From positions 1 through 60,124 of IMG/VR virus record IMGVR_UViG_3300029448_000032: a stretch of 60,124 nt of DNA; one strand, given 5' to 3'. Made by a program: the position numbers and the translations under genes. The notes under the pieces are model-generated. The model saw only the letters and a list, made by a program, of their open reading frames with translations. It was not told the DNA's origin and ran no database searches. Position 1 is the first letter of the stretch. Each line of letters begins with the position of its first letter. Positions 1 to 60,124 of the stretch are shown piece after piece. This stretch comes from a virus.

Positions 1-100
1 CTTATGGAAGAACTAATTACTAAAATTAGAACATCTGATGGTAGAAGAGGCGAGAAAAAAGATGGTGGTTGGAATTATGCTACAAATGTGAAACCACAAC
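1..100. repeat. Left copy of terminal direct repeat (contig circularisation overlap)
   Basis: Bases 3-100 are identical to 60027-60124, and base 1 also matches 60025; only base 2 differs (T here, G at 60026). The repeat lies inside a coding sequence that continues across the join in frame. It is best read as the overlap left when a circular or circularly permuted assembly is opened, not as the physical end of the phage DNA. Confidence 0.9.
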
Positions 101-609
101 TTGCTGCAGAACACGCAGTCACATGGGCTCGAGAAAATAATATAGATCTAAGTAGGCTTGGTGATATAGTTAACATGGCTATGTTGGATATGATAAGTCA
201 ATCAGACAATGAAAGAGCTGATGGTATGAAACCTGAGTATATAGAAGGATACTTAAATAGCGCTATCATTAAACAAGCAGGTGGTGAACCTGGGTTATTT
301 CAAGTTGATCCAGGTAATCCAGCAGCTGGTGGGGTTAATGCAAAAGAGTTCGCTCACATGAAGAGAAACATTGGCCACTTATTACTACGATCAGGACAAT
401 CCGATTCACTTACTGACATAAGTAATTATATTAATACTTATGCAGAACTTTGGAATGGAACTGCTCAATATGAAGGTAAGCCTCATCCAGAGAATTTAAG
501 TGATGCTGATAGAAAGAAATGGGAAGGCAAGAAGCTTAAAGATACTACGCCATTCTTTGAATGGTTACAAAATGAAATTGCTTTAGATCAAAAAGAATTT
601 ATGAAGTAG
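4..609 (+). CDS. C-terminal part of the split 1,164-residue internal virion protein
   Basis: These 201 codons are the end of the gene that starts at 57139 and runs off the right edge of the window. The ATG at base 4 equals the ATG at 60028, which is codon 964 of that frame, so the full protein is about 1,164 residues. This part is mostly helical and charged, with no domain I recognise. The apparent ATG start is an artefact of where the contig was opened. The stop lies 9 bases before the next structural gene, so it belongs to the same late operon of ejection proteins. Confidence 0.9.
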   Translation: MEELITKIRTSDGRRGEKKDGGWNYATNVKPQLAAEHAVTWARENNIDLSRLGDIVNMAMLDMISQSDNERADGMKPEYIEGYLNSAIIKQAGGEPGLFQVDPGNPAAGGVNAKEFAHMKRNIGHLLLRSGQSDSLTDISNYINTYAELWNGTAQYEGKPHPENLSDADRKKWEGKKLKDTTPFFEWLQNEIALDQKEFMK

Positions 610-617
610 GAATTAAA

Positions 618-3600
618 ATGGAAAGAATGTCTTTATCAGAAAGATTAGCTCCTGTAGTTTCTAATACTGATCTAAATGAAGAGTTTAGATTTTTAGATGC
701 AGATACTGTAGAGTCTAAGGTAGACTTTGACGATCAAGGTAGACCATTAAGATTCCGACTTCAAGGAATAGATGCTCCTGAGGTTGCCAAGTATTTTGGT
801 GTAGATAATATTAAAGCTAGTACTTCTGGATCTAATAAAGCTAACTTAGCATTAATGAACTTAGCTAAGAAAGAAGGCTTTACTAACGTTATAAGGTCAG
901 GTAGATTTGATGCATTAGGTCGAGAGATAATTGACTTACAAGACGAAGCTGGTAGAAGTTGGGAAAATACTTTAATAAAAACTGGTGTCTTAGATCCAAC
1001 AAGATACACATCTAATGAAGCAATAAAAGCTAATATAGTAGCTGAAGCTATAGGTACTCATGGACAGGGAGAAGATTGGGACGTAGCTAGGAATGCTATT
1101 GCAGATGCTATATACGATGAAACTAAATACGAGACTATGATAAAGCAACAAGCTATAGACGAAACTGAGTTAGCTTATGGTGGTAATTACTTTATGCCTG
1201 GATCTGTAAAATACAGAAGTTTCGATAGAGATCTACGTAATAAAGCTACTAGTCCTTTTGCTACGGCTTGGGATGTAGGCTTAACAGGCGCTATTGAAGG
1301 TTTGTATGGTGCTGTTGAAATGACTGGCGAAACTACTGGATGGGACTGGGCTAAGAACGTAGGTGAGAATGGTATATATAGAGCTAGAAGAGAGATCGCA
1401 AGAAAACCTGAGATCGTAACTAGCTATAAAGACATAGATGGATTCTTCGGAAGAGATGGATTTCTACAATATGTAGCTAACAACGCAGCCATCTCCTTAC
1501 CTTACATGGCAACTACTATGGCAGGAACATTAGCAGCTCCTTTTACTTATGGTACTTCTTTACTTGCTCCTGTTTCTTTATATTCAGGTACTGTATGGAA
1601 TGATATGGAAGGAGATAATAAGAACGCGCCACTAGCTATTGTAACGGGTGTAGCTCAAACTGCACTAGATAGACTTGGCTTAGGGTTCTTAGCTAAAGGT
1701 ACGTTGTTATCTAAAGAAGGACGACAGACAGCAGTTAATGCTTTAATAAATAAAGCTAGAACAGAAGGAGTTAAGGTAAGTGGTATCACAGTAATACCTC
1801 GTGGTACAGAGTTATCTAAAGAAGCTGCTTCGAATTTGATATTAACATATAGTCGTCAAGAGACAGCTAAGCTAGCTACTGACGCAGCTAAGTTTGCTAA
1901 AGACCAGTTAAGAATGCGGAACGTAGTTAAGTCACAATTAAAGAGACTTGCGGTTGGTGGAACAGGTGAAGGTATAACTGAAGCACTTCAAGAATCTATT
2001 GGATATACTGCAGCTCACCATGCTAATGGATTTAGAGATTGGAATGCTCACGAGTTTAAAGATCGTCTTATTGATGCTACTATTGCAGGTACTTCTCTTG
2101 GTGGTGCCTTCTCCGTACCTGGAGGAGTTTACGACTACGGTGCTTGGACAGATGTAGCTTATAGAACTGGTACTAATACAGGTAAACAGACATCTAAGAT
2201 GGGTAAGCTAGCTGAAAGAGACATAGCTAAGAACGGACAGCAATATAATATTCAAGAAGAAAACGATACAAACAAATTTGAAACTGAGAGACAATCTGGT
2301 GATCCATTCTTTGATAGTAACGAAGATATAAATGACCAAGCAGAAAGACATGAAAAGAAATTAAAACAAAGAGATATGGCTCAAATAATTCGTGACTCAT
2401 TTACAAACTTTCCTAGATTGTATCGTGGAATTATGAGATCTGCATTCGGTAATATGGGATTTGCTGATGAGCTTCAAAATAATTCTACAACAGCTCGTAT
2501 AATGGCTGAAAAGTATGGTGGTAACTTACAAAGATCTGTTTCAGGTGAGTCATACGAAAATAGAAAGCACCATGAGATATCTAAGATACGTCATATACTA
2601 GGAGATGTATCTAATATACTTGCTGGGTTTGGAAGATCAGATAAAAGAAAAGCTCGTATTAAGTTTAGTCAAGAGTTTTATGAAGCTTTTAATAGAGCTC
2701 ATGAAAAAGCTGCAGCTGAAGGAAGAGAAGTTAATTGGGAAACAGATTTAGAAGGACCACTAAGTGAGAATATTCCTGCGTTTATAGCACTTGTAGGTAA
2801 GTTAAATGAAGTAGGAAATAGAATGCATAACATGCAGTCTAAACATAATCCTCAATTAGGAAAGATTAAAGATTATTTAGCTAGACATAGATCTATAAAT
2901 AAAGAAGCTGTTGAAAAGAATAGAGCGGGATTTGAGAATGCTTTATTAAATCTTAAAGATAGTAGAGGTAGACCGTTAGTTACACCAGAGCAAGCTTCAG
3001 AATTAACAGAAGCTATTATAAGGCAAGATGGAGTTAACGATATTTCTGATCTTACAGCAGGTAAAGATGGATTCTCTGTTGTATCTAAAGCTACATTTAA
3101 ACCTCAATCCCATAGGAAAAGAACTTTAAATCTATCTGATAATCCTGAGTTTAACGAATTCTTAGAAATGGATTTATTTTCTAATATATCTAACGCAGCT
3201 AAGTCTGCTGTACGATACACAGTACTAGAAGAGTTTGTTGGTGCTGATAATAAGAAAATTAATAATGATCTTGCTAAAGTTAAAGAAGAATTAATGGGCT
3301 CAGGCTGGAGTGAGGCTGATGCACAAAGCAGAGTAGACAAACTATCTTATGATATGAAAAGGTTTCTTAATGCTGAGTCAGGAAACTACAAGCGTATTCA
3401 AAATCCAATATGGTTATTTGCTCAAAAGAATTTATTATTTGTAACTACTATTACTGGATTACCATTAGCTACACTATCTAATTTTGTTGAACTCGCCTTA
3501 GTTAGTAAGAGTTTAAATGTAAGTCAGATCGTTGGGAAAGATGGTAGTATAGCTAGTATATCTAGAAACTTTGTAAATGAATTAAACAATACTGCTAGAA

Positions 3601-4715
3601 GAGGATTCGGTGCTGCCACAGGTAAAGTGACCCCTCATAGAAGAACATCTGCTGGATACCAGAAAATACAAGAATTAGGTTTCTTAGATTGGGAAGTAGG
3701 TGCAGCTCATACAACAGGCGTTAGTGAAACTGGTCGTATGCACCAACGTGTTTTAGATTTATACTTTAAAACTATTCTATTACAGCAATGGACTAATGCT
3801 ACTCGTGCATCAAGAGCTGCTATCGCAGGAGACTATATAGTAGATAAAATAAATATATTAATTGAAGCACAAATGCATGGAATAGTAGAAGCTGGAACTG
3901 ACTTTAATAGAAAGGCTACTTATACTAATGAAGTTGCAGAAGCTGAAGAAGCATTACGTAATTTAGGTATAGATCCTAGATGGATGGTAGACTATCATAT
4001 GGGATTTCCAGATATGGGTAGGGCTAGTGATCCAAGTTTAAATGTTAGTGATCTTGGTCGACCTAGCAGAGAACCTACTGAGATAGAAACAGAAAAATAT
4101 ACACGAATGATGAATGATGCTACGTTTAGTTTTGTTAATGAGGCTGTCGCTTTGCCTCAATCTGGAAACAGACCTTTGATCTTTCAAGATCCTAGGTTCG
4201 CTTTGTTTACTCAGTTCCAAGGTTTCATAGCTACATTCCAAGCAAACCATTTGCCTAAGATGTGGGCAGAAATGGCAAGACGTGGTACTCCTGCAATGAA
4301 GTATAATGTTTTTGCTACTATGTCTACTATGATTTTATTAGGGTTTGTATCACAACATCTTAAAGACTTATTAAAGTATGGAGAACCAACTCCTTATTTT
4401 AAAGATATGGAATACGTTAGAAGAGGTGTTGCATCCAGTGGATTATTAGGTACATCAGAAAGAGTTTTAGACTTTGTTTTCCCTATGTACCAAGAGAGAT
4501 ACAAAACAAATATTGGTTGGGCATTTGGAACTATATCAGGAGAATCTGCTGCATTAAGTAAAGCTCTTAGAATAGGAGAGTTAGGAGTAGATGTAGCTCA
4601 AGGAGAAAGAGGACTGGGAAGTGCTGCTATGAAGATCTCTCCTTTAGCACAAGCAGCTTATCAAGCACAGAAAAATATACCTCGATGGAATTTTGGAGAT
4701 AACACATGGCAATAA
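618..4715 (+). CDS. Giant internal virion (ejection) protein with N-terminal SNase-type nuclease domain
   Basis: A 1,365-residue protein in the position of the T7 gp15/gp16 core proteins. Residues about 20-125 match the staphylococcal (thermo)nuclease fold: LDADT (D27, D29) for the Ca-binding DGDT, FRLQGIDAPE (R47, D52, E55) for the catalytic RLxxxDxPE, and LGREI (R102) for the second catalytic arginine. All active-site residues are therefore present. About residues 280-360 and 1235-1255 contain hydrophobic, glycine-rich stretches that could enter a membrane; much of the rest is helical and polar. It follows the transglycosylase-bearing protein and overlaps the next gene by 10 bases. The role in DNA ejection is inferred from position and size; the nuclease domain is seen directly. 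Confidence 0.75.
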   Translation: MERMSLSERLAPVVSNTDLNEEFRFLDADTVESKVDFDDQGRPLRFRLQGIDAPEVAKYFGVDNIKASTSGSNKANLALMNLAKKEGFTNVIRSGRFDALGREIIDLQDEAGRSWENTLIKTGVLDPTRYTSNEAIKANIVAEAIGTHGQGEDWDVARNAIADAIYDETKYETMIKQQAIDETELAYGGNYFMPGSVKYRSFDRDLRNKATSPFATAWDVGLTGAIEGLYGAVEMTGETTGWDWAKNVGENGIYRARREIARKPEIVTSYKDIDGFFGRDGFLQYVANNAAISLPYMATTMAGTLAAPFTYGTSLLAPVSLYSGTVWNDMEGDNKNAPLAIVTGVAQTALDRLGLGFLAKGTLLSKEGRQTAVNALINKARTEGVKVSGITVIPRGTELSKEAASNLILTYSRQETAKLATDAAKFAKDQLRMRNVVKSQLKRLAVGGTGEGITEALQESIGYTAAHHANGFRDWNAHEFKDRLIDATIAGTSLGGAFSVPGGVYDYGAWTDVAYRTGTNTGKQTSKMGKLAERDIAKNGQQYNIQEENDTNKFETERQSGDPFFDSNEDINDQAERHEKKLKQRDMAQIIRDSFTNFPRLYRGIMRSAFGNMGFADELQNNSTTARIMAEKYGGNLQRSVSGESYENRKHHEISKIRHILGDVSNILAGFGRSDKRKARIKFSQEFYEAFNRAHEKAAAEGREVNWETDLEGPLSENIPAFIALVGKLNEVGNRMHNMQSKHNPQLGKIKDYLARHRSINKEAVEKNRAGFENALLNLKDSRGRPLVTPEQASELTEAIIRQDGVNDISDLTAGKDGFSVVSKATFKPQSHRKRTLNLSDNPEFNEFLEMDLFSNISNAAKSAVRYTVLEEFVGADNKKINNDLAKVKEELMGSGWSEADAQSRVDKLSYDMKRFLNAESGNYKRIQNPIWLFAQKNLLFVTTITGLPLATLSNFVELALVSKSLNVSQIVGKDGSIASISRNFVNELNNTARRGFGAATGKVTPHRRTSAGYQKIQELGFLDWEVGAAHTTGVSETGRMHQRVLDLYFKTILLQQWTNATRASRAAIAGDYIVDKINILIEAQMHGIVEAGTDFNRKATYTNEVAEAEEALRNLGIDPRWMVDYHMGFPDMGRASDPSLNVSDLGRPSREPTEIETEKYTRMMNDATFSFVNEAVALPQSGNRPLIFQDPRFALFTQFQGFIATFQANHLPKMWAEMARRGTPAMKYNVFATMSTMILLGFVSQHLKDLLKYGEPTPYFKDMEYVRRGVASSGLLGTSERVLDFVFPMYQERYKTNIGWAFGTISGESAALSKALRIGELGVDVAQGERGLGSAAMKISPLAQAAYQAQKNIPRWNFGDNTWQ

Positions 4716-7700
4716 GAGTAAACCCACAAGGAGCTTTAACAGAAGATACTAGAGCTAAGGTTGCTGAGAATGTAAAGCGCATGACAATGGCTGAAAGGTT
4801 TAAAGCAAAACCTTTACTAAAAACTCCAGTCGATCAGTTGAATGTAACAGGAGATCGTCCGTATCTTACAGCTGTAGATGATTACAAAGTAAATAAGTTT
4901 ACACCATCTGCTAACACAAGTCCTTACGCAAGTACTACAGTAACACGAAGCAGACGTGAGAGACTAGATAAAGAAAGAGAAGATGATATTAACGCAAAGC
5001 GTTATGAAGAAGATTTGCTTGCACAAAAACAGCTTGACCGAGAAGAAGCTCTTTCTGAAAGAGAACCTAAAATTCGAGCTATATGGAATCAAGGAGTCCA
5101 GCAAGATGAGGTAGGAAAAAGATTAACTACAGCAGAAGCAGATCAATTACGTCTTAGTACAGGTGTATCTGAAAGTGTAGTAGGAATAGGAGATGATGCT
5201 ACTGGACATATGATTAGAAGGGCTAATCGCTTTGTTAATCTAGCTCACGATACAAAATTAAACTTTACATCAGATGATTATGCTCGTAATATAAGAGCCG
5301 ATCAATCTACAATTTCTGATGAAACTTGGGCTAGACAATCAGCAGCTGCTAGAAAAACAGGTCAGACACTTACTGCTGCAGGGTTTCAACTTAATGATAT
5401 TATGAAAGACCCAACCGGTAGATTGAGTGAAGCTCAAATAGAAAACATAGCTCAGTTCGCAGCAGGCCCTAATGAAAAGTCAAGACCTAGAATTGGAGGT
5501 ATGTATATTCCTAAGCAAACCCGTGGTGTTAACTTAGGTAATGTGTATGAAGAAACTTCTTTAAGAAGAGGTGTGCAACAAGCTGAAGGTAGTCTTCCAC
5601 TAGTAAGCGATCCTAGAAATGAAGGTCAATATAGAGAAGCTACTTTTTTAGATCAGTATAACAAAGAGATAATATCTAGAACAGGTTCAGATAAAAATGT
5701 TATAGATCCATTAAGTGTTAAAGGTATTATGTTTAATCCTGACGGATTTGATGCTGGAGTATTTGATAGAGAAGGGAACATGGTAGTTGATCCAACAGCT
5801 TTAACTACTATGGCTTTAGCTACTGAGATCTTCCTTAATAAAGCACAGTATCAAAAAGATACTACTCCTATAGAAGGTGATGCAGTTCTAGAGAAAGAGT
5901 CTGTTAAAGATAAAGCCTTAAGAGAAGCACAAGATACTACTTTTTCACCAGAAGGTGGAATCGGAAGAGTTGAAGGTAATGCAGAGTTAGGAAGAGAAAT
6001 CTTTAAATCTTGGAAGCGTGAACAAAACTTAATGAACAATAGACCTAGTGACCAATATAATATAGACGCACTTAGTAACAATGAATTCGTAGCTTTAGGA
6101 ACTCTAGCTAAAGAGATGTATCATATGGCTAACCCACATTTACTAACAAGGATAAGTAATGAGGGAGGTTTTGATGCTGACGCAATAGGAGATCACGTTA
6201 ACTCTTCAGTTGAATTCAGGTTAACCGATCTAGGTAAAAAGGTTTTTCTTGAAACTCAGAAGTCATCTCCAGATGCTTTCAGAAATTATGAAATAAAAGC
6301 TAGACATAGCAAGAAATCTAGAGCTCTTCAAGATACAAGAACAGAGAAGGATGTTTATTTAAAATCAGCAACAACTGTTATTAAACCTGAAGTACATGAA
6401 GCTATAGAAGAAGCTCGCTTTAATATGGGTAATGTAGGTCATGTAATTGACCCGCTTAGACGTAAAATAGTTACGCAGCTTGCGATCACTGCACTGGCTG
6501 AAATGAAGAAACCCGGCGCGATTCCTAAGGTCGGTGACTTTTTTGATGTTGGCCAAGTAAAACTTGATGCCTTTAATGCAGAACTTAACAACAAAAGAAG
6601 AAGTCGTAATTATGTAGAGGGTGAGTATCGTCCTGAATATGAATTAGAGAAGCAGCTTACTAAACTAATAGAAATGCTTAATACTGTAGGAGTAAATAGT
6701 AATAAAGTTAATTACTTAGATTTTGTGTTACAAAGTCTTACTCATAGAATGCATGCAGGTCAAACAAGATTTAATCCACAATTAATTCCTTTGTTAAGGT
6801 ATATTACAGGTGGTGCAGTTCCTACTGCTGTTAATACTGCTGGTACTTCTGATGCTAACCTTATGTTTAAAGAGTTAATGGCTATTCATTTTCTTAAAGA
6901 AGATGCTGACGGTAAAAAGAGTAAATTCGATTTGCCTGAAACTAGAGTAAAGAACTTCGATGCAGAATGGGCAAAACCCAATCATGGTAGATTAGGACCT
7001 TATATCTCAGCTGGTAATGCTATTAGACAAAGCTTACTAAATAATGAGCAAGATGCTAAGTACACTGAAGCATTATCTAATATAAGATTAGAAGAAATAA
7101 AGAGTGATCCTTTAGGACAAGAGCAAAGTCTTAGTGATTTAGCTATTCAAGGAGGATTTGAACCTGTACCAGAATCTACTAGTCCTCTTAGTAAAAAAGC
7201 TCAAGGAATTGTTATACCCCCTGAATTACTTGATGTTCCTGGTTTAAATATGGGAGATGGTTTACTTAATGAAGCTAGTAAGGAAGGTATTGAAGGGCTT
7301 CATTTAGTTGAGGCAGCTCATGAGTTAGCTATGTGGGCTGAAGCTCGGAAGTCTAATGATCCAGCAAAGCAAACATTTAATTCTAATATAGGAGTAGAGT
7401 TTGACGGACTAACACATGGACCTGCTTCTTGGGTTGCAACATTAGGATCTATTGTAGCTGGATATAGAACAGGTATGTTTAGAAAACCTGGTGCTACTCA
7501 AAAATTAGATGAGTTCAATAGACAGAACATGTTAGATGTGTGGCTTGAACACCAGCCAGACGAGTATGTTGAAGCAGATCCTTCTCCTGACCAAGTAGCT
7601 GGAGATTTTAGAAATGCAATGGGCGTTTGGATGCTGTCTGAAGGGGAGAAGTATGCTAATCGTGTTAATCCTAGACATGCTGCAGAGTTATACGAGATAT

Positions 7701-9232
7701 TAGGAGAAGCTATTAAAGATAAGGAGTATTTTCTTAAGAAACCTCCTATGACTTTATCATATGGCCAAATGCTAGAGAATTTAACTGATTCTATAGGACA
7801 AGCAGTTATGGGTTCTTCTAGAATAAGAGAAATCATGAACAATAAAGATTTCAGAGAGTCTATTATTACTAGACAGCTGATAGCGCGGGGAAAAGATCCT
7901 TCTTCTATTGAGAAGTTAAGCCCTAAAGAGCGTAAAGAAATAGTTGGTAATGGTGTTATAGATTTTCTTCATAATATATTAGCAGATGCTATTGACTCTC
8001 AAATTCATCCAGGAATAACTGAAGTAGGCCAACTTATTAGAGCTAACGCTATGGTCTCTATAATGAGCGATGAGCTTATGACCATTGAAAGTGCGTTAGG
8101 TCTTCCAAATTATATAGGAGCTAAAGAAAGTCTTCAACAAACATATCAAGCTCCGCTTACAGGTACAGTACCTGGAAATAAAAGTATCGGAGATATATAC
8201 TTATTTAAGACTCAACCTTCTGGTAGTGCAATAAGAACAATCGAAACTCCAGGTGGGATTAAACAAATAGTAGGTGGATACACTTCAGGAAGAAGTATTC
8301 CAGCTATCATACAAGCTATTGATGGAGCTTGGATGAATAGGATGTTTACAGATTCTTTTAAAGGACCAAATGGATTACAAGATGCTTATATGGTACCTAT
8401 CTTTGATGCTGTTAAAACAGATTTAACAAGTGCTAGAAGAGTTAGAGAACATGCTAATCATAATTGGTGGAATGTTATAAAAGAGTATAATTACTTTGAT
8501 AGTCTTATGCAAGATTGGCAACCAAAAGCAAGTGAAAGGTTTACGAAACATCTTACAGATATCGGTGATACACCTATATCAAGCACTAATGGGTACGGAT
8601 TAACAGACGTAGCTGCATTTAATAGTAAAAAGCCTACAAGAAAGATACTTCAAGCGGGTAATCGCTATAAAGCTTTTCATGATTTCTTTACAGTAACTAG
8701 AGAAGACAGTAAATATTCTCAGGGCAATATGCTTAAAGAAGGAGATTTAAGTTTAGAAAATCTTATATCTGCATTTAAAACTTCAGGATTATTTCCTGCT
8801 CGTAAGAAAGGGCAAACAGTTAAGGCTTATAAAAAGCAAGTAAACGATGCAGCTACAGAACAAGCGAAGATGTTATTTCCTGAGATAGCACAATTTCATA
8901 TAGAGCAAAAACAGATTTTGAGTAATGTTAGGGAAGGAAGTATGACTGGGTTTCAAGGTAGAACTTGGGAAGAATACTATGCATTTTTAAATGAACATTC
9001 TACTAATGAACTCGGTGATAGACTAAGAGAGCTTAGAAGAATATATCAAATGGATCCTACTGGTAATGAGTTAAACTCCATATACCAAACAATAATAGGA
9101 AAATATGGTTTAGATTTAAAAGCTAGAAATGATAGTGTTACTAAGCAATATAGAAAAGCCCATGAAAACATGTTTAAGTTTGCTAAGAAATTGGCTAATG
9201 ATATTAGACTTCTTCAAATAGACATGGGATAA
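4706..9232 (+). CDS. Giant internal virion (ejection) protein
   Basis: A 1,508-residue, largely helical, charged protein, the last gene of the rightward late arm. It begins 10 bases inside the preceding ejection-protein gene and ends directly at the bidirectional terminator. I recognise no enzymatic domain. Length and position match the largest core protein of T7-like phages (T7 gp16, 1,318 residues), which forms the transient channel through the host envelope; the transglycosylase found on T7 gp16 sits here on a different protein (gene at 57139). Function is assigned by context only. Confidence 0.65.
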   Translation: MAIRVNPQGALTEDTRAKVAENVKRMTMAERFKAKPLLKTPVDQLNVTGDRPYLTAVDDYKVNKFTPSANTSPYASTTVTRSRRERLDKEREDDINAKRYEEDLLAQKQLDREEALSEREPKIRAIWNQGVQQDEVGKRLTTAEADQLRLSTGVSESVVGIGDDATGHMIRRANRFVNLAHDTKLNFTSDDYARNIRADQSTISDETWARQSAAARKTGQTLTAAGFQLNDIMKDPTGRLSEAQIENIAQFAAGPNEKSRPRIGGMYIPKQTRGVNLGNVYEETSLRRGVQQAEGSLPLVSDPRNEGQYREATFLDQYNKEIISRTGSDKNVIDPLSVKGIMFNPDGFDAGVFDREGNMVVDPTALTTMALATEIFLNKAQYQKDTTPIEGDAVLEKESVKDKALREAQDTTFSPEGGIGRVEGNAELGREIFKSWKREQNLMNNRPSDQYNIDALSNNEFVALGTLAKEMYHMANPHLLTRISNEGGFDADAIGDHVNSSVEFRLTDLGKKVFLETQKSSPDAFRNYEIKARHSKKSRALQDTRTEKDVYLKSATTVIKPEVHEAIEEARFNMGNVGHVIDPLRRKIVTQLAITALAEMKKPGAIPKVGDFFDVGQVKLDAFNAELNNKRRSRNYVEGEYRPEYELEKQLTKLIEMLNTVGVNSNKVNYLDFVLQSLTHRMHAGQTRFNPQLIPLLRYITGGAVPTAVNTAGTSDANLMFKELMAIHFLKEDADGKKSKFDLPETRVKNFDAEWAKPNHGRLGPYISAGNAIRQSLLNNEQDAKYTEALSNIRLEEIKSDPLGQEQSLSDLAIQGGFEPVPESTSPLSKKAQGIVIPPELLDVPGLNMGDGLLNEASKEGIEGLHLVEAAHELAMWAEARKSNDPAKQTFNSNIGVEFDGLTHGPASWVATLGSIVAGYRTGMFRKPGATQKLDEFNRQNMLDVWLEHQPDEYVEADPSPDQVAGDFRNAMGVWMLSEGEKYANRVNPRHAAELYEILGEAIKDKEYFLKKPPMTLSYGQMLENLTDSIGQAVMGSSRIREIMNNKDFRESIITRQLIARGKDPSSIEKLSPKERKEIVGNGVIDFLHNILADAIDSQIHPGITEVGQLIRANAMVSIMSDELMTIESALGLPNYIGAKESLQQTYQAPLTGTVPGNKSIGDIYLFKTQPSGSAIRTIETPGGIKQIVGGYTSGRSIPAIIQAIDGAWMNRMFTDSFKGPNGLQDAYMVPIFDAVKTDLTSARRVREHANHNWWNVIKEYNYFDSLMQDWQPKASERFTKHLTDIGDTPISSTNGYGLTDVAAFNSKKPTRKILQAGNRYKAFHDFFTVTREDSKYSQGNMLKEGDLSLENLISAFKTSGLFPARKKGQTVKAYKKQVNDAATEQAKMLFPEIAQFHIEQKQILSNVREGSMTGFQGRTWEEYYAFLNEHSTNELGDRLRELRRIYQMDPTGNELNSIYQTIIGKYGLDLKARNDSVTKQYRKAHENMFKFAKKLANDIRLLQIDMG

Positions 9233-9476: not shown

Positions 9477-11837
9477 TTACGAAAAGAAATAATCGCTATC
9501 AGCGATTTCTTTTACGTTTAGATTTCCTAGCTTGTAGTTATAACTAAACTTTTCAGGTTCCATTAATAACATATCGGCTATATGTTGATAGTAATCGCCA
9601 TGATCGTACATTTTAATGAACACTTCTTTAGTTAAGTCTAATAAGCTAGCTACATCACAACCGTGAGTAGAAAATGAGTCATGTATTGCAGCGAAGTCAC
9701 CGTCCCAATGGTGTATAATTAACGCCATATGAGCTGCATCCATACTGTGAATAAAGTTTGGGCTTATGCCCGAAGCAAAGCCGCCAGGGCTTGCTATCTT
9801 TTTGCCGTATACAAGGCGGTGTTCCTTACCGACATGCTGGATTCTCATATCCGATATCCAGCTTTTCCATTTGATATCTTCCATTACGTAATTTTCATAT
9901 CGTACTGGAAATCCAGATGGAGTAGTCCACTCAATAACAGGCTCATTCAAGTCTGCTATAATGTGGTTTGCTATTGCTTGTAGATAACTCATAGTTTCTA
10001 ACGGACCGGGACAAACTTCATCTATCGCTTTAATTAGATTAAAAGATAGATCATTACAGTCTGACATAGATATATTATACTTACTATGGAATCCTTCAGC
10101 GTAGCAATCAGCGTACATATTTAATGCTATGGCTAAATGACCTGCGCTATAAGCTCTAGTCATAGACCCACGTTTAGAGATACCTTTACGGATATGTTTC
10201 ATAGGCATATCACGAGACTCAAACCACTCAGGCATACGAGCTATTAAAGCTTTAGCCGTTTGTACATAGAAGTCTTTAGGTATTTCTGTTTGAACTAGAC
10301 CTACAAGCTTACCAGCTTCTTTGTCTTTAGATATAGCAGCCAAGTGTTGCCACCCATTATTAGATCCATCAATAGGAATAGGAAGGTTTATATAGTAATC
10401 ATTCTCAGGAGATTGATCCCATAAAGTACACCATGCTTTACAACAAGCAAGAAAGCTAACAGGCTTCTCTGCTTTATCATGGATAGTACGGTTGATCCAA
10501 GTATTTCTGATAAAGTCTTCGTTATTAGAAACCCATTTAACTCTATCATCAATAGTCATCTTATCAACTGAGATGTCTGTCAACCTTTCATTTTCCAAGT
10601 GACTCTTATAATCAGCATCACACCACTCAGGTATGTTATCAATAGTATACGATTGATTATATGTACAGGCTGTATGTACTGCAAAGTAATACAAGCCTTC
10701 ATCAGTCATCGGTTTAGCACTTGCGAATTTAAGTAGACCACGTTCCATGTCTTTACCTTGATAGTTCAAGTAAGACTCTCTGTAATATAGTCTACCACGA
10801 TAATCTGTATCTACATATTGGAAAAAGATTTTATTCTCTAATGCTTCAGCTTTCTGAACAGTCATATTGTAAGCATCAAACTTACTACGGTTCTTTAATA
10901 ATACTAGCTTAGCATTCCAATTAGTAGCAGCGTTATCATATTTCTTTTGAGCTCTGACTAATGGCTTCTTGTCAGGTTTATTACGTAGTTTATTAGTTAA
11001 TCTTCTTAACTCTCCGTAATACCTTTTCTCTAAAGATTTATTACCTAAATCTGGTTTAAATACCACATCATTCCAGTATAAATCTTTTCCTTCCAACTCT
11101 TTGTTGTTACCAAATATACAATAGCGGTAGTTCTTACCGGTCTCATCTGATACTTTAAGAGTTTCAGTTACAAACTTACGTTTGTTTTTCTTAACCGCTT
11201 CTAAGATATCACTATCAATAGTCCAAGCTGTTTGCTGCAATTTGTTTATCGCATCTACAAATGGTTCATCTAATAACTCTTTAAATGATTCGGCTTTATC
11301 GAAACCCCAATGCTTTATTACTGGGTAACCATTCTCTTGGAATAGATTATGAATACGGTTTATCTTCGTAAACGAAGTGTTCTGTATTAACTCGTTTACT
11401 ACGTCACTGGGAAGTGATCCAATTTGTAACCACTTTTCAGAGGTCTCTATCATATATGGAGCTCTACTGAAAGGCTTTTTACCTATAGGATTAGCTTCCC
11501 ATTTTATTTGAGCTTCAGTTGGAGCTCTAAATATTTTTATATATCCACATTCATAGAACGCTTCAAGAACTAGGTCGCCGACTGTTACGTCAGCTCTAAA
11601 CCCTAGCTCTACTCCCTTCTGAAGCAACACATTCTTACCTATAGCAACCGAAGCTGCTGTAAGTTTACATGTTGCTGACTCAGAAGTTGAAGTCTTTGTG
11701 AAGTGGTATTGCAGTATAGTTAATGCGTCATATACTAACCGCTTCGGATCCAGCTTGTGTTCGTTCACCAGCTTTACTGCCCACCTCTGCGGTGTATTTA
11801 TAATTTTCTGTTCTAAATACTCTATTATGTTCTGCAT
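9477..11837 (-). CDS. Single-subunit T7-type DNA-directed RNA polymerase
   Basis: About 786 residues (T7 gp1 is 883). The palm and finger motifs are all there: DYRGRLYY (around residue 425), DGSNNGWQH (motif A aspartate near 490), KRGSMTRAYSAG (motif B, near 560), PNFIHSMDAAHM and HDSFSTH (motif C aspartate near 722). The C-terminus ends in an aromatic tail (YFFS) like FAFA of T7. I chose the ATG at 11837 because AGGAGA precedes it; a longer frame reaches 11894 without a good ribosome site. It transcribes the phage genome from its own promoters, for which the 18-bp elements at 25632, 26394, 29573 and 47968 are candidates. It lies near the end of the leftward arm, whereas T7 gene 1 is early-proximal. 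Confidence 0.97.
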   Translation of the reverse strand: MQNIIEYLEQKIINTPQRWAVKLVNEHKLDPKRLVYDALTILQYHFTKTSTSESATCKLTAASVAIGKNVLLQKGVELGFRADVTVGDLVLEAFYECGYIKIFRAPTEAQIKWEANPIGKKPFSRAPYMIETSEKWLQIGSLPSDVVNELIQNTSFTKINRIHNLFQENGYPVIKHWGFDKAESFKELLDEPFVDAINKLQQTAWTIDSDILEAVKKNKRKFVTETLKVSDETGKNYRYCIFGNNKELEGKDLYWNDVVFKPDLGNKSLEKRYYGELRRLTNKLRNKPDKKPLVRAQKKYDNAATNWNAKLVLLKNRSKFDAYNMTVQKAEALENKIFFQYVDTDYRGRLYYRESYLNYQGKDMERGLLKFASAKPMTDEGLYYFAVHTACTYNQSYTIDNIPEWCDADYKSHLENERLTDISVDKMTIDDRVKWVSNNEDFIRNTWINRTIHDKAEKPVSFLACCKAWCTLWDQSPENDYYINLPIPIDGSNNGWQHLAAISKDKEAGKLVGLVQTEIPKDFYVQTAKALIARMPEWFESRDMPMKHIRKGISKRGSMTRAYSAGHLAIALNMYADCYAEGFHSKYNISMSDCNDLSFNLIKAIDEVCPGPLETMSYLQAIANHIIADLNEPVIEWTTPSGFPVRYENYVMEDIKWKSWISDMRIQHVGKEHRLVYGKKIASPGGFASGISPNFIHSMDAAHMALIIHHWDGDFAAIHDSFSTHGCDVASLLDLTKEVFIKMYDHGDYYQHIADMLLMEPEKFSYNYKLGNLNVKEIADSDYFFS

Positions 11838-12186
11838 TATTTCTCCTAGTTTTGCGGAACGGATTATGTGTAACGTTAAACAGGTCACACCCATTCCTTA
11901 AGCAACATTTTATTTCATGAGATTCTACTACAGTAGCTTCTTTATCTGTCATCTGTCCACCTTTAATCACAACAACATCTTGTATTTTGTGGACAGACAA
12001 CTTATCAAGCAACCAAATATGGTGGTCATAACCACGGTTAGTTATCTGGTATGCTCTATGTAAAGTACCCTTACCAACGTATACTACGTTATCCGTTTCC
12101 GGATCTTTATGAAAGTAAACACAGTACATATCTTCAGGATACTTTACAACTTCATGGGTATCTTCTCTAATCTCTATCTGACGCAA
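11728..12186 (-). CDS. GIY-YIG-like nuclease domain protein
   Basis: A 152-residue protein. Residues about 20-107 look like a GIY-YIG fold: VYFHK, then VYVGKG at about 35-40, an arginine at 44 and a glutamate-rich helix (EATVVESHE) near 82-90. Such domains make DNA strand breaks in homing enzymes and repair nucleases. The start overlaps the dCMP deaminase stop by 20 bases, and the last 36 codons overlap the RNA polymerase start by 110 bases in another frame. Target and role are unknown; it could be a free-standing homing-type endonuclease or a host-DNA nuclease. Confidence 0.7.
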   Translation of the reverse strand: MRQIEIREDTHEVVKYPEDMYCVYFHKDPETDNVVYVGKGTLHRAYQITNRGYDHHIWLLDKLSVHKIQDVVVIKGGQMTDKEATVVESHEIKCCLRNGCDLFNVTHNPFRKTRRNNAEHNRVFRTENYKYTAEVGSKAGERTQAGSEAVSI

Positions 12187-18359: not shown

Positions 18360-19050
18360 TCATCCAGACCTCATAGGTACTACATAGTCTTTAGGTTTAA
18401 TACATTCTTCTATTAAATGAAAATGTCTAGGATATACATGAAGGTTCTGAACCTGCCACGTAATATGCCCTGCTTCAAGACCGAGATCTATCGCAAGACG
18501 GTTAATTACTTTAACTTGCCAAGCATAATCATTAATGTACCCAAATACCGCATCGTTTGAGCGCATCTGAACTACACCATAGAGCGCTGTTCCTCTTTTA
18601 TAGTATGTTACAGCATTTGTACAGACAAAGTCATTCTTACCATGCTCTATGGCCGTCTGATGCATGTCTGGGTTTGTGTATATCATAGTAGCTCTTCGAG
18701 AATTAGGACGTAGCTTTAATTCTTGGACTACATTATTATATTGGCTGCCATTCTCTTTACTATAGATTAAGTATCCATAGTTAGAGTTAATGTCACCATC
18801 AGTATTAGCGGTTACATCCTTCCATATAGCAGGAACCTTACCGTAAATATCTCCTAAATCATTTACGTTTAGACTTTGAGAATCATACCACTCTAATTCA
18901 GCTTCAATGTACTTAACATTTCTTTCTCCGAATATAGTCGGTTCATCAGCAAGGAAGCTGGCAGCTCTTATCTCGAGCGTACCATCTTCCTGAAAGTCTT
19001 GGTTCTTATACAGTTGAATGAATTCTTTTTTGATTTCACCCGACAGCATT
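18360..19050 (-). CDS. dCMP hydroxymethylase (T4 gp42-type, thymidylate synthase fold)
   Basis: 229 residues from the ATG at 19050, which has AGGAAG 5 bases upstream; the open frame extends further without a better start. It parallels T4 gp42 (246 residues) over its length: ASFLADEPTIFG near 30-41, INSNYG at 87-92, SRRATMIYT at 117-125, the catalytic cysteine C143 in DFVCTN, and MRSNDAVFGYINDYAW at 162-177. D174 stands where thymidylate synthase has the Asn that selects dUMP; Asp here (D179 of T4) selects dCMP. It should make 5-hydroxymethyl-dCMP using methylene-tetrahydrofolate. Flanked by MazG-like and DUF1599-like genes. Confidence 0.93.
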
Positions 19051-19437
19051 AGCTTCCTTTCTTCTATGTTTAAAATAGTGGTCAACCATTTGTTGGTCAC
19101 ATACAAATGTTTTACCTGAGCCTTGTTCTGTTATTTGATAAGGTCTTTTTCTAGCCTTACTCTTATAACCGGTAAGTTTAAATTGCTTACCATCTATCAT
19201 GGCGGTAACATTAGTATCTAAATCATGGAGTCTAGCCCATACATCTAAGTCTTTCTTTTCTTTAGACCTATTTCCTTTGATTCTAGCTATAACTTTAAAT
19301 GTAACTTCATCTTCATCGTAGCTAGCATTACCTACTTTAATATCTAAATCAGGTAACTCGTCATAAGCTCTCATATTTATAGAGCTTTGTAGTTGATTTC
19401 TAATTTCTTTAACAAGTTGTTTATTAAATGATTGCAT
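19036..19437 (-). CDS. Hypothetical protein upstream of dCMP hydroxymethylase
   Basis: 133 residues (MQSFNKQLVKEIRNQLQSS...). Residues 1-25 are helical, followed by acidic beta-strands (DEDEVTFKVIARIKG) and a Lys/Arg-rich C-terminus with two cysteines or fewer. It overlaps the hydroxymethylase gene by 15 bases, so it is translationally linked to the nucleotide-modification block. Small phage proteins of this general shape recur in other phages as far as I know, but their function is not known to me. Confidence 0.65.
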   Translation of the reverse strand: MQSFNKQLVKEIRNQLQSSINMRAYDELPDLDIKVGNASYDEDEVTFKVIARIKGNRSKEKKDLDVWARLHDLDTNVTAMIDGKQFKLTGYKSKARKRPYQITEQGSGKTFVCDQQMVDHYFKHRRKEANAVG

Positions 19438-28782: not shown

Positions 28783-28877
28783 TTATTAACATAATTTGTT
28801 TTGCTTTTATGGGAATTGGTTTTGCTGTAAATGTGGCTCTTTTAATCCATCTTTCACAAATAAAGGATCGAATATGA
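28779..28877 (+). CDS. 32-residue single-pass membrane protein
   Basis: MIINIICFAFMGIGFAVNVA then LLIHLSQIKDRI: one transmembrane helix and a short charged tail. ATGA overlaps on both sides couple it to the SleB gene and thyX. Small holin-like or accessory lysis protein is possible. Confidence 0.5.
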   Translation: MIINIICFAFMGIGFAVNVALLIHLSQIKDRI

Positions 28878-29584
28878 TAAATGAGATAAAAGTAGATCTT
28901 ATAGATTCTTGTGGTACAGACTTAACTGTAGTTAATGCTGCAAGAGTATCATTCGATAAAGAAGCAGAGTGGGGTTGGGAGAGATACGATCAAGATGACT
29001 TTAAGAGAGTATTAAGACCAAGAGACAAAAAACTTATTGAGTACTTAGCTGAGCATGAACACTGGAGTCCTTTTGCCCACACGTTTTTGCAATTCAGAAT
29101 AACAGCTCCAATCTTTGTTGCTCGTCAGTTGGGTAAACATCAGGTAGGCCTAGTATGGAACGAGGTTAGCAGAAGATATGTAGACGAAGATCCTGTATTT
29201 TTTAAACCTAAAGAATTTAGAGGAAAACCTATAAATAAAAAGCAGGGAAGTTCTAAAGAAATAATAGATATAAATCCTTCTACAGGGTCTGGTCCTATGT
29301 TTGTAGATGAATATGATAGAGTCATGAACACCAGTAAGTGGACATATAATCAGTTATTAAGTTTAGGTGTATGTCCTGAGCAAGCACGTTTAGTATTACC
29401 ACAAGCAATGATGACGAGCTGGTATTGGTCAGGATCTTTGTTTGCTTTTTCGAGAGTATATAACTTACGAAGTAAAGAGGATGCTCAAGAAGAATGTCAA
29501 GATGTAGCTAAAGAATTAGATAAACATTGTAAACATAAATTTCCTATATCGTGGAAACACTTAACCACAGGAACTGTCCCCTAA
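28874..29584 (+). CDS. thyX: Flavin-dependent thymidylate synthase ThyX
   Basis: 236 residues from the ATG at 28874, preceded by AAAGGA; the longer frame upstream is the 32-residue gene in another frame. ThyX features: HEHWSPFAHTFLQFR near 55-70, then the FAD/dUMP motif VARQLGKHQVGLVWNEVSRRY (phage variant of RHRxxSxNExS) and RLVLPQAMMTSWYWSG near 175. It methylates dUMP from the phage dCMP deaminase. A phage promoter-like element overlaps its stop. Confidence 0.95.
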   Translation: MINEIKVDLIDSCGTDLTVVNAARVSFDKEAEWGWERYDQDDFKRVLRPRDKKLIEYLAEHEHWSPFAHTFLQFRITAPIFVARQLGKHQVGLVWNEVSRRYVDEDPVFFKPKEFRGKPINKKQGSSKEIIDINPSTGSGPMFVDEYDRVMNTSKWTYNQLLSLGVCPEQARLVLPQAMMTSWYWSGSLFAFSRVYNLRSKEDAQEECQDVAKELDKHCKHKFPISWKHLTTGTVP

Positions 29585-57138: not shown

Positions 57139-60124
57139 ATGAACTTAAAGAAAATCATAAGGAAAGACGTTGACGGAAACTCTATGTCTTTCGAATTTGA
57201 TATACCCAAAGCTAATGTTCCTCCTGTAGATTCGATACCTAACTACGATCATCCAGGAGAACCAAAAGGTTCTGACACAGTTCCTGCTTGGTTAACTCCA
57301 GGAGAGAATATAGTTAATGCAGAAGCTTCTAGACTTCCCGGTAACCAACAAATAATAGATCAGATGAATAATCAAGGTCGAGCTATCCAAGCTCAGCAAG
57401 GAGGTAGTATACCTACTTATGCAGATGGAGGAGGCTTTATTGATATAGCAAGAACTGCTACAGACTACGCTCCATACGCGTTAGCTAGTATAGGATTACC
57501 TGCTTCATTAGCTGGTTTGTGGACTTCGTATAAGTCTAGGAATGCAGGTGGAATACCTAAGGGTTGGAAACCTATAGGCTGGAAACCTTATCCAGTTCAC
57601 CCGTTTCTATTAAGAAAATCCGAAGGTGGACCAGTGTATGCAGCAAAAGGAACTGAATCAGCTCCTGACACAAGTTGGGTTGATGGTATACTAGATGCTT
57701 TAAGATTTGTAGAATCCGGAGAAATTACTGATCCATCTAAGTTAATATCTTCTGCAGGTGCAGAAGGATTCTATCAAATTATGCCTGCTAACTTTGGAGA
57801 ACTAACTGAGAAAGACGATGCTGGCAATGTTACTAAAACTTACAAAGGTAAAGGAGCAGCTGGTTATGATACTCCTGTAATTTCAAGAGAGGACGCTTAC
57901 GATCCAGAAAAAGCTAGAGCATGGGCTAAAGCTTATCTTACTAATATGCAGTTGGCACATCCTGAATGGTCACCTTCTGATGTTTTAAGGGCTTATAATT
58001 GGGGCCCAGGAAACATGAAGAAGTTTATGAGGGAAGATGTTAGTTGGGATGAGGTACCTACTGAAGCTAAAGAATATACTGATAAAGTTTTTAAGCATTA
58101 CAAAAATTTAACTGGTGAAAACTTCTATGATACTACAAGTAATGCTCCTGAACTAGCAGGTTTACGTAATGCTATACCTGTTCCTGGTGAAACGGATATC
58201 CCTAGTGGCGATTTAAGCATGGCAGAGCTGATGATTCCAGACTATCCGGTAGATTCATCAGTAGAAATAGATGCAGATGGTCCTGGACAAAATTTAAAAA
58301 TCGGACCAGGAGGCGTACCTGATATGCCAATGAACTTTATGGGTTCAGCAAATCCTAGAAGAGGCTATGAGAGTGGTCAAGATTATATGAATACATTTGG
58401 ATTAATAGATCCTTTTAGTAGGCAAGTAAGTAAAATATATGATGGTGCTCCGTCTGTATCTGGAATGGATAGTTTATATCAAACCTATCCTAAAGAAATT
58501 CCTTGGGAAGAACATTTTGGTGTTAATCCTGTAGGATATCAAGATCCTGTGCAAGCAATGTATGGTATGGGAGAAGTAAACGTTCCTTCTTCTCCTTATG
58601 AAGGTACTTTGTTAGATCCTAATACAGTAATAGATGGTTATGAAGACTTAAAAACACAAGAACTATTAAATGCAGCTAGAAGCGGTGCCTTTGGTCCGTT
58701 CCCTGCTGCCTCAATAGATGGTGATGAGTTTGCTAAAGCCGCAGGAGCAGTAGGTTTACCTACAGATAATGATACATTAAATCAAATAGTTGATATGGTT
58801 AATCGTGAAAACATTAGCCCTCAAGAAGCTGCAGCAAAAATAAAAGAAATGTCTATAACGCCTTTAACTAATGCTATTCAAGGACCAGACACAGATCCTA
58901 ACGCTCCTGAGGTAAACCCTTCAAATTATTTATTTACTTCAGGTGCAGGTATTAATGTTCCTGGAGCAGGCGAAACTCCTATTCCAACTCTTGATGAAAT
59001 GTTTGATCTTGGAGATTATGATAAAATTCAAGAAGATATAAACAAAATACAATCATCAAACCAAATTGAACACGATACAAGAGTACCTACTTTAGACATG
59101 GAAAAATATGGGGATCTTTTAACTTCTCCTCCTTATACTGAAGGTTTTGAAGGTGTTCCTTTTACAGAACAGATGAGTCAGTTACATGAAGCTATAAAAG
59201 AAAAGTTTGAGAGTGCTGATAATACATCTAGTCTTCAAGCAATCCTAGATGGTGGTCCTAATGCTGACTCTGTAAATAATCAAGAACTTAAAGAGAGTAA
59301 AAAGAAAGCTGAAGAATTTAGAGCTGCTGAAGAGAAAGCTGCTGAACAAGTAGGAATGACTACTGAGTCACTAAGTCAAGATAGAGTAGATAAGTTATCA
59401 AAGCAATTTAGTGATATGGATTCTACTGAAGTTACAGAAGATACAACTACTGTTGAAAATAAATATAAAGAAGCTTATAAAGATGGACGTGGAACAGATC
59501 TTTATAAACAGCTTCCACCAGAAAACAAAGTTGCTGGGTTCTTTAAAGACTTATTAGGAGATATCTTTGACGTTAAAGAACTTAAGCGCGCAGCTGTTAT
59601 GTATCTAGGAGGTAGACTTTTAGGATATAGTCATGCATCTGCTGGTAATTTTGCTGTTAAGAATATGTTAACTCGTATGGATAATCAAGAAACAACAAGA
59701 GCAGCTAATATAAAAGAGTGGATGGGTTCATATAGTCCAAAAACTTTACAACTATATAAAGAAACTGGTGATCTATCTGTACTAGAACCAATTGGTGCTT
59801 CAGTATACAGACAAGGAGTATATCAGGACTGGTACGGAAGAGGAAAGAACGGACAACCTGTGAAAATAAGAGTTGAAAAAGTTCACGTAGGATCTGGTGA
59901 TAAGAAGCAAGTGAAGTGGTATGGTTCAGATGGAAAAGAATATAGAAAAGAAGACTTCAGTTTAGATGTAAGCGATTATCCTAAGAGTGATGAGTACTTA
60001 GATAAAAATACTAAATTCCAAGACCGTATGGAAGAACTAATTACTAAAATTAGAACATCTGATGGTAGAAGAGGCGAGAAAAAAGATGGTGGTTGGAATT
60101 ATGCTACAAATGTGAAACCACAAC
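57139..60124 (+). CDS. Internal virion protein with lytic transglycosylase domain (N-terminal 995 codons, continues at base 4)
   Basis: The frame is open from the ATG at 57139 (AAAGGAG upstream) to the end of the window and continues, through the repeat, to 609, giving about 1,164 residues. PAWLTPGENIVNAEASRLPG near 54-73 is a motif of phage tail and core proteins. FVESGEITDP near 190 with the glutamate (about E192), GFYQIMPANF, and LRAYNWGPGNMKKF near 285-300 form an SLT transglycosylase (about 185-320) that opens the peptidoglycan for DNA entry. The rest is Pro/Gly-rich linker and, from 650 on, acidic helices. Confidence 0.88.
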   Translation, partial: MNLKKIIRKDVDGNSMSFEFDIPKANVPPVDSIPNYDHPGEPKGSDTVPAWLTPGENIVNAEASRLPGNQQIIDQMNNQGRAIQAQQGGSIPTYADGGGFIDIARTATDYAPYALASIGLPASLAGLWTSYKSRNAGGIPKGWKPIGWKPYPVHPFLLRKSEGGPVYAAKGTESAPDTSWVDGILDALRFVESGEITDPSKLISSAGAEGFYQIMPANFGELTEKDDAGNVTKTYKGKGAAGYDTPVISREDAYDPEKARAWAKAYLTNMQLAHPEWSPSDVLRAYNWGPGNMKKFMREDVSWDEVPTEAKEYTDKVFKHYKNLTGENFYDTTSNAPELAGLRNAIPVPGETDIPSGDLSMAELMIPDYPVDSSVEIDADGPGQNLKIGPGGVPDMPMNFMGSANPRRGYESGQDYMNTFGLIDPFSRQVSKIYDGAPSVSGMDSLYQTYPKEIPWEEHFGVNPVGYQDPVQAMYGMGEVNVPSSPYEGTLLDPNTVIDGYEDLKTQELLNAARSGAFGPFPAASIDGDEFAKAAGAVGLPTDNDTLNQIVDMVNRENISPQEAAAKIKEMSITPLTNAIQGPDTDPNAPEVNPSNYLFTSGAGINVPGAGETPIPTLDEMFDLGDYDKIQEDINKIQSSNQIEHDTRVPTLDMEKYGDLLTSPPYTEGFEGVPFTEQMSQLHEAIKEKFESADNTSSLQAILDGGPNADSVNNQELKESKKKAEEFRAAEEKAAEQVGMTTESLSQDRVDKLSKQFSDMDSTEVTEDTTTVENKYKEAYKDGRGTDLYKQLPPENKVAGFFKDLLGDIFDVKELKRAAVMYLGGRLLGYSHASAGNFAVKNMLTRMDNQETTRAANIKEWMGSYSPKTLQLYKETGDLSVLEPIGASVYRQGVYQDWYGRGKNGQPVKIRVEKVHVGSGDKKQVKWYGSDGKEYRKEDFSLDVSDYPKSDEYLDKNTKFQDRMEELITKIRTSDGRRGEKKDGGWNYATNVKPQ
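60025..60124. repeat. Right copy of terminal direct repeat
   Basis: Same as 1-100 apart from base 60026 (G) versus base 2 (T). Codon 963 is CGT (Arg) here and CTT (Leu) at bases 1-3. Joining the copies gives a circle of about 60,024 bases. Confidence 0.9.

Follow-up and report, generated by a model that had tools for sequence, protein, structure and literature searches.

Why should a protein that a phage probably ejects at the onset of infection begin with a nuclease? This question is raised by a gene near the start of the virus record IMGVR_UViG_3300029448_000032 in IMG/VR (positions 1 to 60,124; the whole stretch of 60,124 nucleotides is referred to here as the window). Ejection proteins are known for conduit building and for carrying murein hydrolases, whereas the 1365-residue product of this gene had been assigned, in a preliminary description, an N-terminal staphylococcal nuclease (SNase) domain followed by an ejection-protein body. 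Both assignments withstood our analysis. Residues ~20-148 are strongly supported as an SNase-family domain by profile comparison with the PDB, AlphaFold2 (AF2) modeling and Foldseek, and the body matches viral internal virion and ejection proteins in PHROG, BFVD and VIA-align comparisons. We consider it very probable that an SNase homolog sits on an ejection protein. The features of the gene are as follows.

618..4715, plus strand: predicted SNase-headed, gp16-like ejection protein, 1365 amino acids, with the ATG at 618
675..1061, plus strand: SNase domain, residues ~20-148 (profile against PDB, AF2 with Foldseek and VIA-align)
696..707, plus strand: metal-site motif D27-A-D29-T30
756..782, plus strand: segment from R47 to E55, R47-x4-D52-A-P-E55
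921..923, plus strand: codon of R102, within D98-A-L-G-R102
1113..4712, plus strand: helical body, residues 166-1365 (AF2, BFVD, VIA-align, phrog_6958)

A second ATG, at 627, encodes M4, a methionine that is invariant across a 12-row alignment of the family.

Searches with the single protein are blind to the nuclease domain, so that a family profile was needed. With the window protein alone, Pfam recognized no family, and the PF00565 model likewise missed the protein in the 60,124-base record; PHROGs returned only phrog_8809, at 0.03, and no SNase; and phmmer against the PDB yielded only weak matches to gamma-delta resolvase, the best at 0.19, and no SNase. In the search for relatives, none emerged when the first 161 residues were searched for as a DNA pattern, whereas the whole protein as the query did find some, and an alignment-based search performed best, with 123 relatives, of which 80 were kept. 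From the N-terminal domains of 51 relatives, we built a profile and compared it with all PDB sequences. All 14 matches at E <= 0.1 were to staphylococcal nuclease (best, 9.4e-5), and in the HMMER alignments, the DGDT motif, R35, D40, E43 and GR87 of the nuclease fall in register with the motifs of the window protein; in SNase numbering, we take D19/D21/T22, R35/D40/E43 and D83/R87 to correspond to D27/D29/T30, R47/D52/E55 and D98/R102 of the window, respectively. PF00565 itself matches five of the 51 relatives at E <= 0.01 (best, 2.3e-6) and, in the record of locus L070 (related loci are denoted by L numbers), scores 28.9 bits, above the curated cut-off of 21. In the reverse search, 135 of 398 genomes contained matches to the profile, most of them located in open reading frames (ORFs) of SNase size; one match was a phage contig of this very family, and several coincide in position with PF00565 matches.

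Structure prediction agrees. For residues 1-152, AF2 yields a model with a mean predicted local distance difference test score (pLDDT) of 82; 75 residues are at >=90, and of the 16 ten-residue blocks, seven reach values of 94-97. The fold predicted for this N-terminal region matches SNase, as opposed to one unrelated to OB/SNase: the best 50 Foldseek rows are all staphylococcal nuclease (top E 6.4e-4, probability 1.00), and VIA-align superimposes the model on SNase over 113 aligned residues with a root-mean-square deviation of 3.8 and a Z of 7.9, under the Z of 8 below which the tool advises caution.

Two protein families of unknown function came up in these searches. The family phrog_8809 (2317 positions) aligns weakly with the SNase domain (0.0043 for L018, and the 0.03 given above for the window), and phrog_37474 (2087 positions) shows a strong alignment to the lysozyme region in L070 and L072 that extends into the SNase region. 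Judging from these alignments, both families may comprise further SNase-bearing giant phage proteins.

Is the nuclease likely to be active? Conservation was assessed in 63 distinct N-terminal domains and in 35 representatives with less than 60% identity to one another (mean pairwise identity, 33%). According to the preliminary description, the active site was conserved throughout; this holds for D27, D29, R47, E55 and R102, each identical in 63 of the 63 relatives, but not for the calcium-ligand position 52, which is D in just 36, with S in 11, E in nine, N in five and Q and T in one each. T30 is T in 61 relatives and S in two. Among the 35 representatives, six of the 135 columns are invariant, namely, D27, D29, R47, E55, R102 and G112, so that four of the five classical catalytic positions are found within the six invariant columns (hypergeometric probability 3.5e-6 to 7.6e-6, a calculation that ignores relatedness). 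The domain was placed with a motif pattern that consists of D27, D29, R47 and E55, without R102; among the loci with an intact N-terminus, this pattern dropped only the one of Pseudomonas phage JB8, and the first alignment, of 12 sequences and made free of any pattern, showed the same invariant residues.

The cellular SNases follow the same regime. Among 49 distinct cellular SNases (51 of 52 loci matched; the set comprises the top profile matches and is thus biased to good SNases), the equivalents of D27, D29, R47 and E55 are present in all 49 and that of R102 in 39, with gaps in the remaining 10, whereas at the equivalent of position 52, 34 have N and 15 have D. The equivalent of the calcium ligand D40, present in the window protein as D52, is accordingly not a strict criterion of the family, and the variation at this position, which we considered as a mark of decay, lends no support to such an interpretation. 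The constraint pattern resembling that of the cellular enzymes, including the tolerance at position 52, is our main ground for calling the phage domain catalytic, and judging from these alignments, the nuclease is probably active. The domain could instead be catalytically dead and serve as an OB-fold module for nucleic acid binding or as a structural part of the conduit, as might be suggested by the 18 of 63 relatives with S, N, Q or T at position 52 and by the structures of the extended tudor domain of human SND1 (p100) among the VIA-align matches. However, a role in binding only does not predict the invariance of R47, E55 and R102 at a mean pairwise identity of 33%, and given that position 52 varies in the cellular SNases as well, we regard the loss of catalysis as quite unlikely.

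The presence of the domain is as constant as its active site. Each of the 77 sequences in which the N-terminus is intact carries the SNase, a count that leaves out seven loci open at the 5' end, two frame-split loci and JB8, and the domain is present also in L090, L092, L046 (in a split frame) and L079 (in the upstream piece). The split of the SNase gene between frames in L046 and L079 probably reflects sequencing or assembly errors, with the SNase piece kept in both. The one sequence of this comparison without an SNase is that of the outgroup JB8. A late, sporadic insertion of the domain, which was also considered, is rejected given this distribution. The phages of this group make up a large, mostly uncultured family, in which the SNase, as far as the available sequences go, is a fixed part of the protein.

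The remaining 1200 residues suggest a link of this domain to the virion. The window protein matches phrog_6958, a family of virion structural proteins, at 7.5e-25, and in tblastn searches, the body is distantly related to that of phage JB8, a member of the LUZ24 gp50 'phage particle protein' family (123 records with a match). For LUZ24, nine virion proteins identified by mass spectrometry are reported in PMC3517423. The AF2 model of residues 166-1365 (pLDDT 70.6, predicted template modeling score 0.67) has BFVD matches reaching E 2.7e-17, and the named internal virion or core proteins among these, between 1.3e-9 and 2.1e-5, come from Pseudomonas phages Ab05 (1.3e-9) and LKA1, Vibrio phage VP2 and Pantoea phage LIMElight; an 'internal virion protein D' is found at 2.1e-5. 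When the model was compared with the PDB using VIA-align, the PhiM1 ejectosome occupied row 1 (Z 6.3, 300 aligned residues), T7 core proteins rows 6 (Z 5.0) and 8 (Z 4.6; this entry, titled merely 'core proteins', is presumably from T7) and the core protein of phage E1004 row 15 (Z 4.1), with ABC transporters filling much of the rest. Residues ~587-1170 align with the T7-type and PhiM1 ejectosome core chains. Singly, these Z values are weak, but four phage core proteins in the top 15 rows, matching overlapping parts of the model, support a body of the gp16 type. At the sequence level, the body matched no ejection protein among the PDB chains, the best match being Syn-F4-Link at 0.043. In sum, the predicted body probably resembles the internal virion (ejection) proteins of the T7 gp16 type.

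In T7 gp16 itself, residues 1-156 form a transglycosylase located in the periplasmic part of the conduit, as described in a review (PMC8954989). Like T7 gp16 (internal virion protein D), the window protein is a very long helical protein encoded in a three-gene ejection cassette, with an enzymatic domain at the extreme N-terminus and a body with a predicted fold that matches T7 core chains (weakly) and phiKMV-like internal virion proteins. Unlike in T7 gp16, the N-terminal domain is an SNase rather than a transglycosylase, and the hydrolase either belongs to a different protein of the cassette or precedes the SNase. The protein shares a homologous C-terminal body also with the LUZ24 gp50-type particle protein (phrog_6958), the JB8 member of which differs in being shorter, ~1040 amino acids, and in lacking the SNase.

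The genes around it form a cassette with a conserved order: the transglycosylase protein, the SNase protein as the second, the 1508-residue protein and the convergent RNA polymerase.

57139..60124, continuing at 1-609, plus strand: upstream partner, SLT transglycosylase protein, 1164 amino acids when joined
1..609, plus strand: C-terminal part of the upstream partner
4706..9232, plus strand: downstream partner, 1508 amino acids, syntenic in 77 of the 85 related loci
9477..11894, minus strand: convergent phage RNA polymerase, the boundary of the cassette, on the opposite strand in 71 of the 85 related loci

The upstream partner crosses the ends of the record. Positions 3-100 and 60027-60124 of the 60,124-base record are an exact 98-base repeat, and with the ends identical over this length, the map closes and the ORF starting at 57139 runs into 1-609; the 201-residue ORF at 4-609 is listed separately merely because the window was cut inside the gene of the upstream partner. 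The SLT domain of this protein spans residues 201-299 (57739-58035) and scores 25.9 bits, compared with a cut-off of 21.3. A homolog of the upstream protein is present in 58 of the 85 loci used for the analysis of synteny, many of which are truncated.

From homology and gene order, we infer that the protein is present in the virion and ejected. Conceivably, it is not injected at all, the SNase being a mere passenger that functions within the producing cell, such as in assembly or lysis; the order of the cassette, in which the SNase protein lies between the transglycosylase protein and the 1508-residue protein followed by the convergent RNA polymerase, the matches to families of virion structural and internal core proteins and the fusion, in some of the relatives, to a lysozyme module common to N4-like virion RNA polymerases all speak against this possibility, and we consider it highly improbable. 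With the SNase at the spot of the transglycosylase of T7 gp16, delivery of a nuclease at the moment of infection is, by analogy, probable for these phages.

What accompanies the nuclease in the cassette is a murein hydrolase that changes from one phage to another. The upstream gene, the usual site of the hydrolase, encodes an SLT domain in the window, L015 and L018, whereas other upstream genes carry different domains: Phage_lysozyme in L006 and L042, Phage_lysozyme2 in L028, a pesticin-type lysozyme in Roseobacter phage CRP-7 and GH108 in one more member. In 12 loci (L068, L070-L078, L080 and L082), a lysozyme is fused directly N-terminal to the SNase; in such loci, the upstream protein is shorter (772-828 amino acids in the four tested), and no recognizable domain was found in any of the four upstream proteins from L068, L070, L072 and L077. 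A count based on seven query domains, a limited set, in the 55 cassettes with a complete upstream ORF (the window included) placed the hydrolase upstream in 23, on the SNase ORF in nine, on both in none and on neither in 23. When the first 450 residues of the 23 unmatched upstream ORFs were compared with Pfam, Phage_lysozyme2 was found in nine, SLT in five and GH108 in one, with overlaps between the members possible, so that the true share of upstream hydrolases exceeds 23 of 55. The upstream ORFs of L050, L057, L059 and L083 appear by eye to be free of hydrolases. Thus, the hydrolase is drawn from at least five Pfam families and its position shifts between proteins, and the SNase is kept wherever the N-terminus is readable.

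The SNase proteins of L006 and L007 are near-identical, and the N-terminal regions of their upstream proteins differ, the Phage_lysozyme domain of L006 not being found in L007 with our queries, which suggests, at the level of sequence comparison, that the module for wall cutting is swapped rapidly. In the fused group, the lysozyme module shows relatedness to the N-terminal part of Vibrio N4-like proteins that carry the annotation virion RNA polymerase, and this module occurs also in an internal virion protein of an Alteromonas phage; no SNase was detected in the two lysozyme-sharing records of this kind that were examined (L094 and L095, partly covered). In L042, the upstream ORF (2932-5979) includes, beside the lysozyme domain, a weak EF-hand-like calcium-binding stretch, under the Pfam cut-off.

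The pairing of the SNase with interchangeable murein hydrolases points to the cell envelope and away from the region next to the packaged DNA. The reading we favor, with a rough probability of 0.42, is that a gp16-type protein with a nuclease head is packaged and ejected, and that the heads face the wall and cut nucleic acid outside the tunnel. Under this scenario, a metal-dependent SNase would have replaced the transglycosylase at the head of a T7 gp16-type ejection protein packaged in the phage head. At infection, this protein would leave the virion together with the 1164-residue transglycosylase protein and the 1508-residue protein, and the three would build a conduit across the envelope. 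The nuclease heads would be exposed where the conduit faces the periplasm and the wall, like the transglycosylase head of T7 gp16, whereas the phage DNA, running inside the tunnel, would be shielded from them. Calcium would be supplied from outside the cytoplasm. Sea water contains ~10 mM calcium. The targets would lie outside the tunnel and could include periplasmic DNA of competing phages, DNA that is stray or extracellular and host nucleic acid reached via the breach.

Provided that the nuclease is active, we put the chances that it acts outside the tunnel in the envelope at about even. We infer the periplasmic position and the substrate of the nuclease, and the substrate is the weakest step of the argument. 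The nucleotide metabolism genes of the phage would suit the degradation of host nucleic acid, and the periplasmic position would suit the exclusion of other phages. A more specific version, in which the SNase is a non-exchangeable core element of the ejectosome and forms a periplasmic ring outside the tunnel, providing for a self-sparing exclusion or clearance of rival DNA that is coupled to entry and precedes phage gene expression, appears doubtful, although conceivable.

Several observations weigh against the favored scenario. Nucleic acid is scarce in the periplasm, so that the target of the nuclease is not obvious. In the LUZ24 gp50 family, the nearest one from isolated phages annotated as a virion protein, the member examined (JB8) lacks the SNase, which is therefore not needed by all such machines. 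Every VIA-align Z, for the domain as well as for the body, is below 8, and in this range, the tool warns that the match can be to a common arrangement; in Foldseek, the body model had no significant match in the PDB. The substitutions in 18 of the 63 relatives at the calcium-ligand position 52, discussed above, belong to the same side of the balance.

The nuclease might also work deeper in the host. If the head were released or translocated into the cytoplasm, an active enzyme could degrade the chromosome or RNA before expression of the phage genes and feed the nucleotide enzymes of the phage, which encodes the large subunit of ribonucleotide reductase, two thymidylate synthase-type genes, a MazG-type pyrophosphohydrolase, an exonuclease and a RusA-like resolvase; a gene of the T7 endonuclease I type did not turn up in the 37 window ORFs scanned with PHROGs. 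SNase-family enzymes are classically dependent on Ca2+, however, and cytoplasmic Ca2+ is low; such action would expose the incoming phage DNA, and the pairing with murein hydrolases points to the envelope. According to PMC5512222, injection into host cells is presumed for polyvalent proteins that carry DNase domains of other kinds, but on balance, we hold cytoplasmic action to be unlikely, if plausible. The substrate could, alternatively, be the DNA of the phage itself, with the nuclease trimming an end, releasing DNA caught in the portal or, after entry, cutting the trailing end. The fixation of the domain in the ejection protein of the group is what would be expected for a part of the delivery machine; yet SNase-type enzymes are generally unspecific, no domain conferring site specificity was seen, an unspecific enzyme would be dangerous near the packaged genome, and the LUZ24-type relative manages without an SNase. 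Action on the phage DNA thus appears improbable.

The two thymidylate synthase-type genes of the window differ from each other: one is located at 18360-19106 on the minus strand (phrog_160) and the other at 28796-29584 on the plus strand (phrog_85).

The protein can also be compared with other known systems. The only isolated member of the family that we found is Roseobacter phage CRP-7, from the East Sea of China. Its gp34 is 21% identical to the window protein over the protein, has an SNase with the equivalents of D27, D29, R47, D52, E55 and R102, and lies in the same gene order; it differs in being annotated as hypothetical and in that the domain of the upstream gene is the pesticin-type lysozyme, not SLT. 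With staphylococcal nuclease and the YncB-type cellular SNases (PF00565), the window domain shares the fold, the order of the motifs and the catalytic residues, but the cellular SNases are mostly free-standing ORFs among the matches seen, whereas here the SNase is a domain of a predicted ejection protein. Polyvalent injected phage proteins can join a lysozyme with a ParB-like DNase, as reported by Iyer et al. 2017 (PMC5512222). The proteins of L068, L070 and L072, which combine a lysozyme and an SNase in one polypeptide, resemble these, unlike the window protein with its single recognized catalytic domain. Elsewhere in the window, the ORF at 49790-54046 encodes a 1418-residue virion protein (phrog_3287, 9.7e-54), the C-terminus of which weakly matches the polyvalent-protein domain LPD30, under the cut-off.

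Neither 'SNase' nor 'staphylococcal nuclease' appears in the main text of PMC5512222, and words starting with 'nuclease' (endonuclease and exonuclease not counted) are absent from the main texts of PMC8954989 and the CRP-7 genome paper (PMC6918029). In literature searches that covered few subscription papers and preprints, none of the listed papers dealt with an ejection protein bearing an SNase domain, and we do not claim its absence from print. SNases are known, and so are gp16-like ejection proteins; what appears to be new is the SNase head on a gp16-like body. The preliminary description had missed that the SNase is at the place of the T7 gp16 transglycosylase, is fixed in a large phage group and is paired with interchangeable hydrolases.

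The constancy of the nuclease head on a gp16-like protein throughout such a large group suggests that, in these phages, nucleic acid is attacked as part of genome entry. It raises the question of how the incoming genome escapes the nuclease, and with CRP-7 in culture and a domain small enough to be expressed alone, this question is directly testable.

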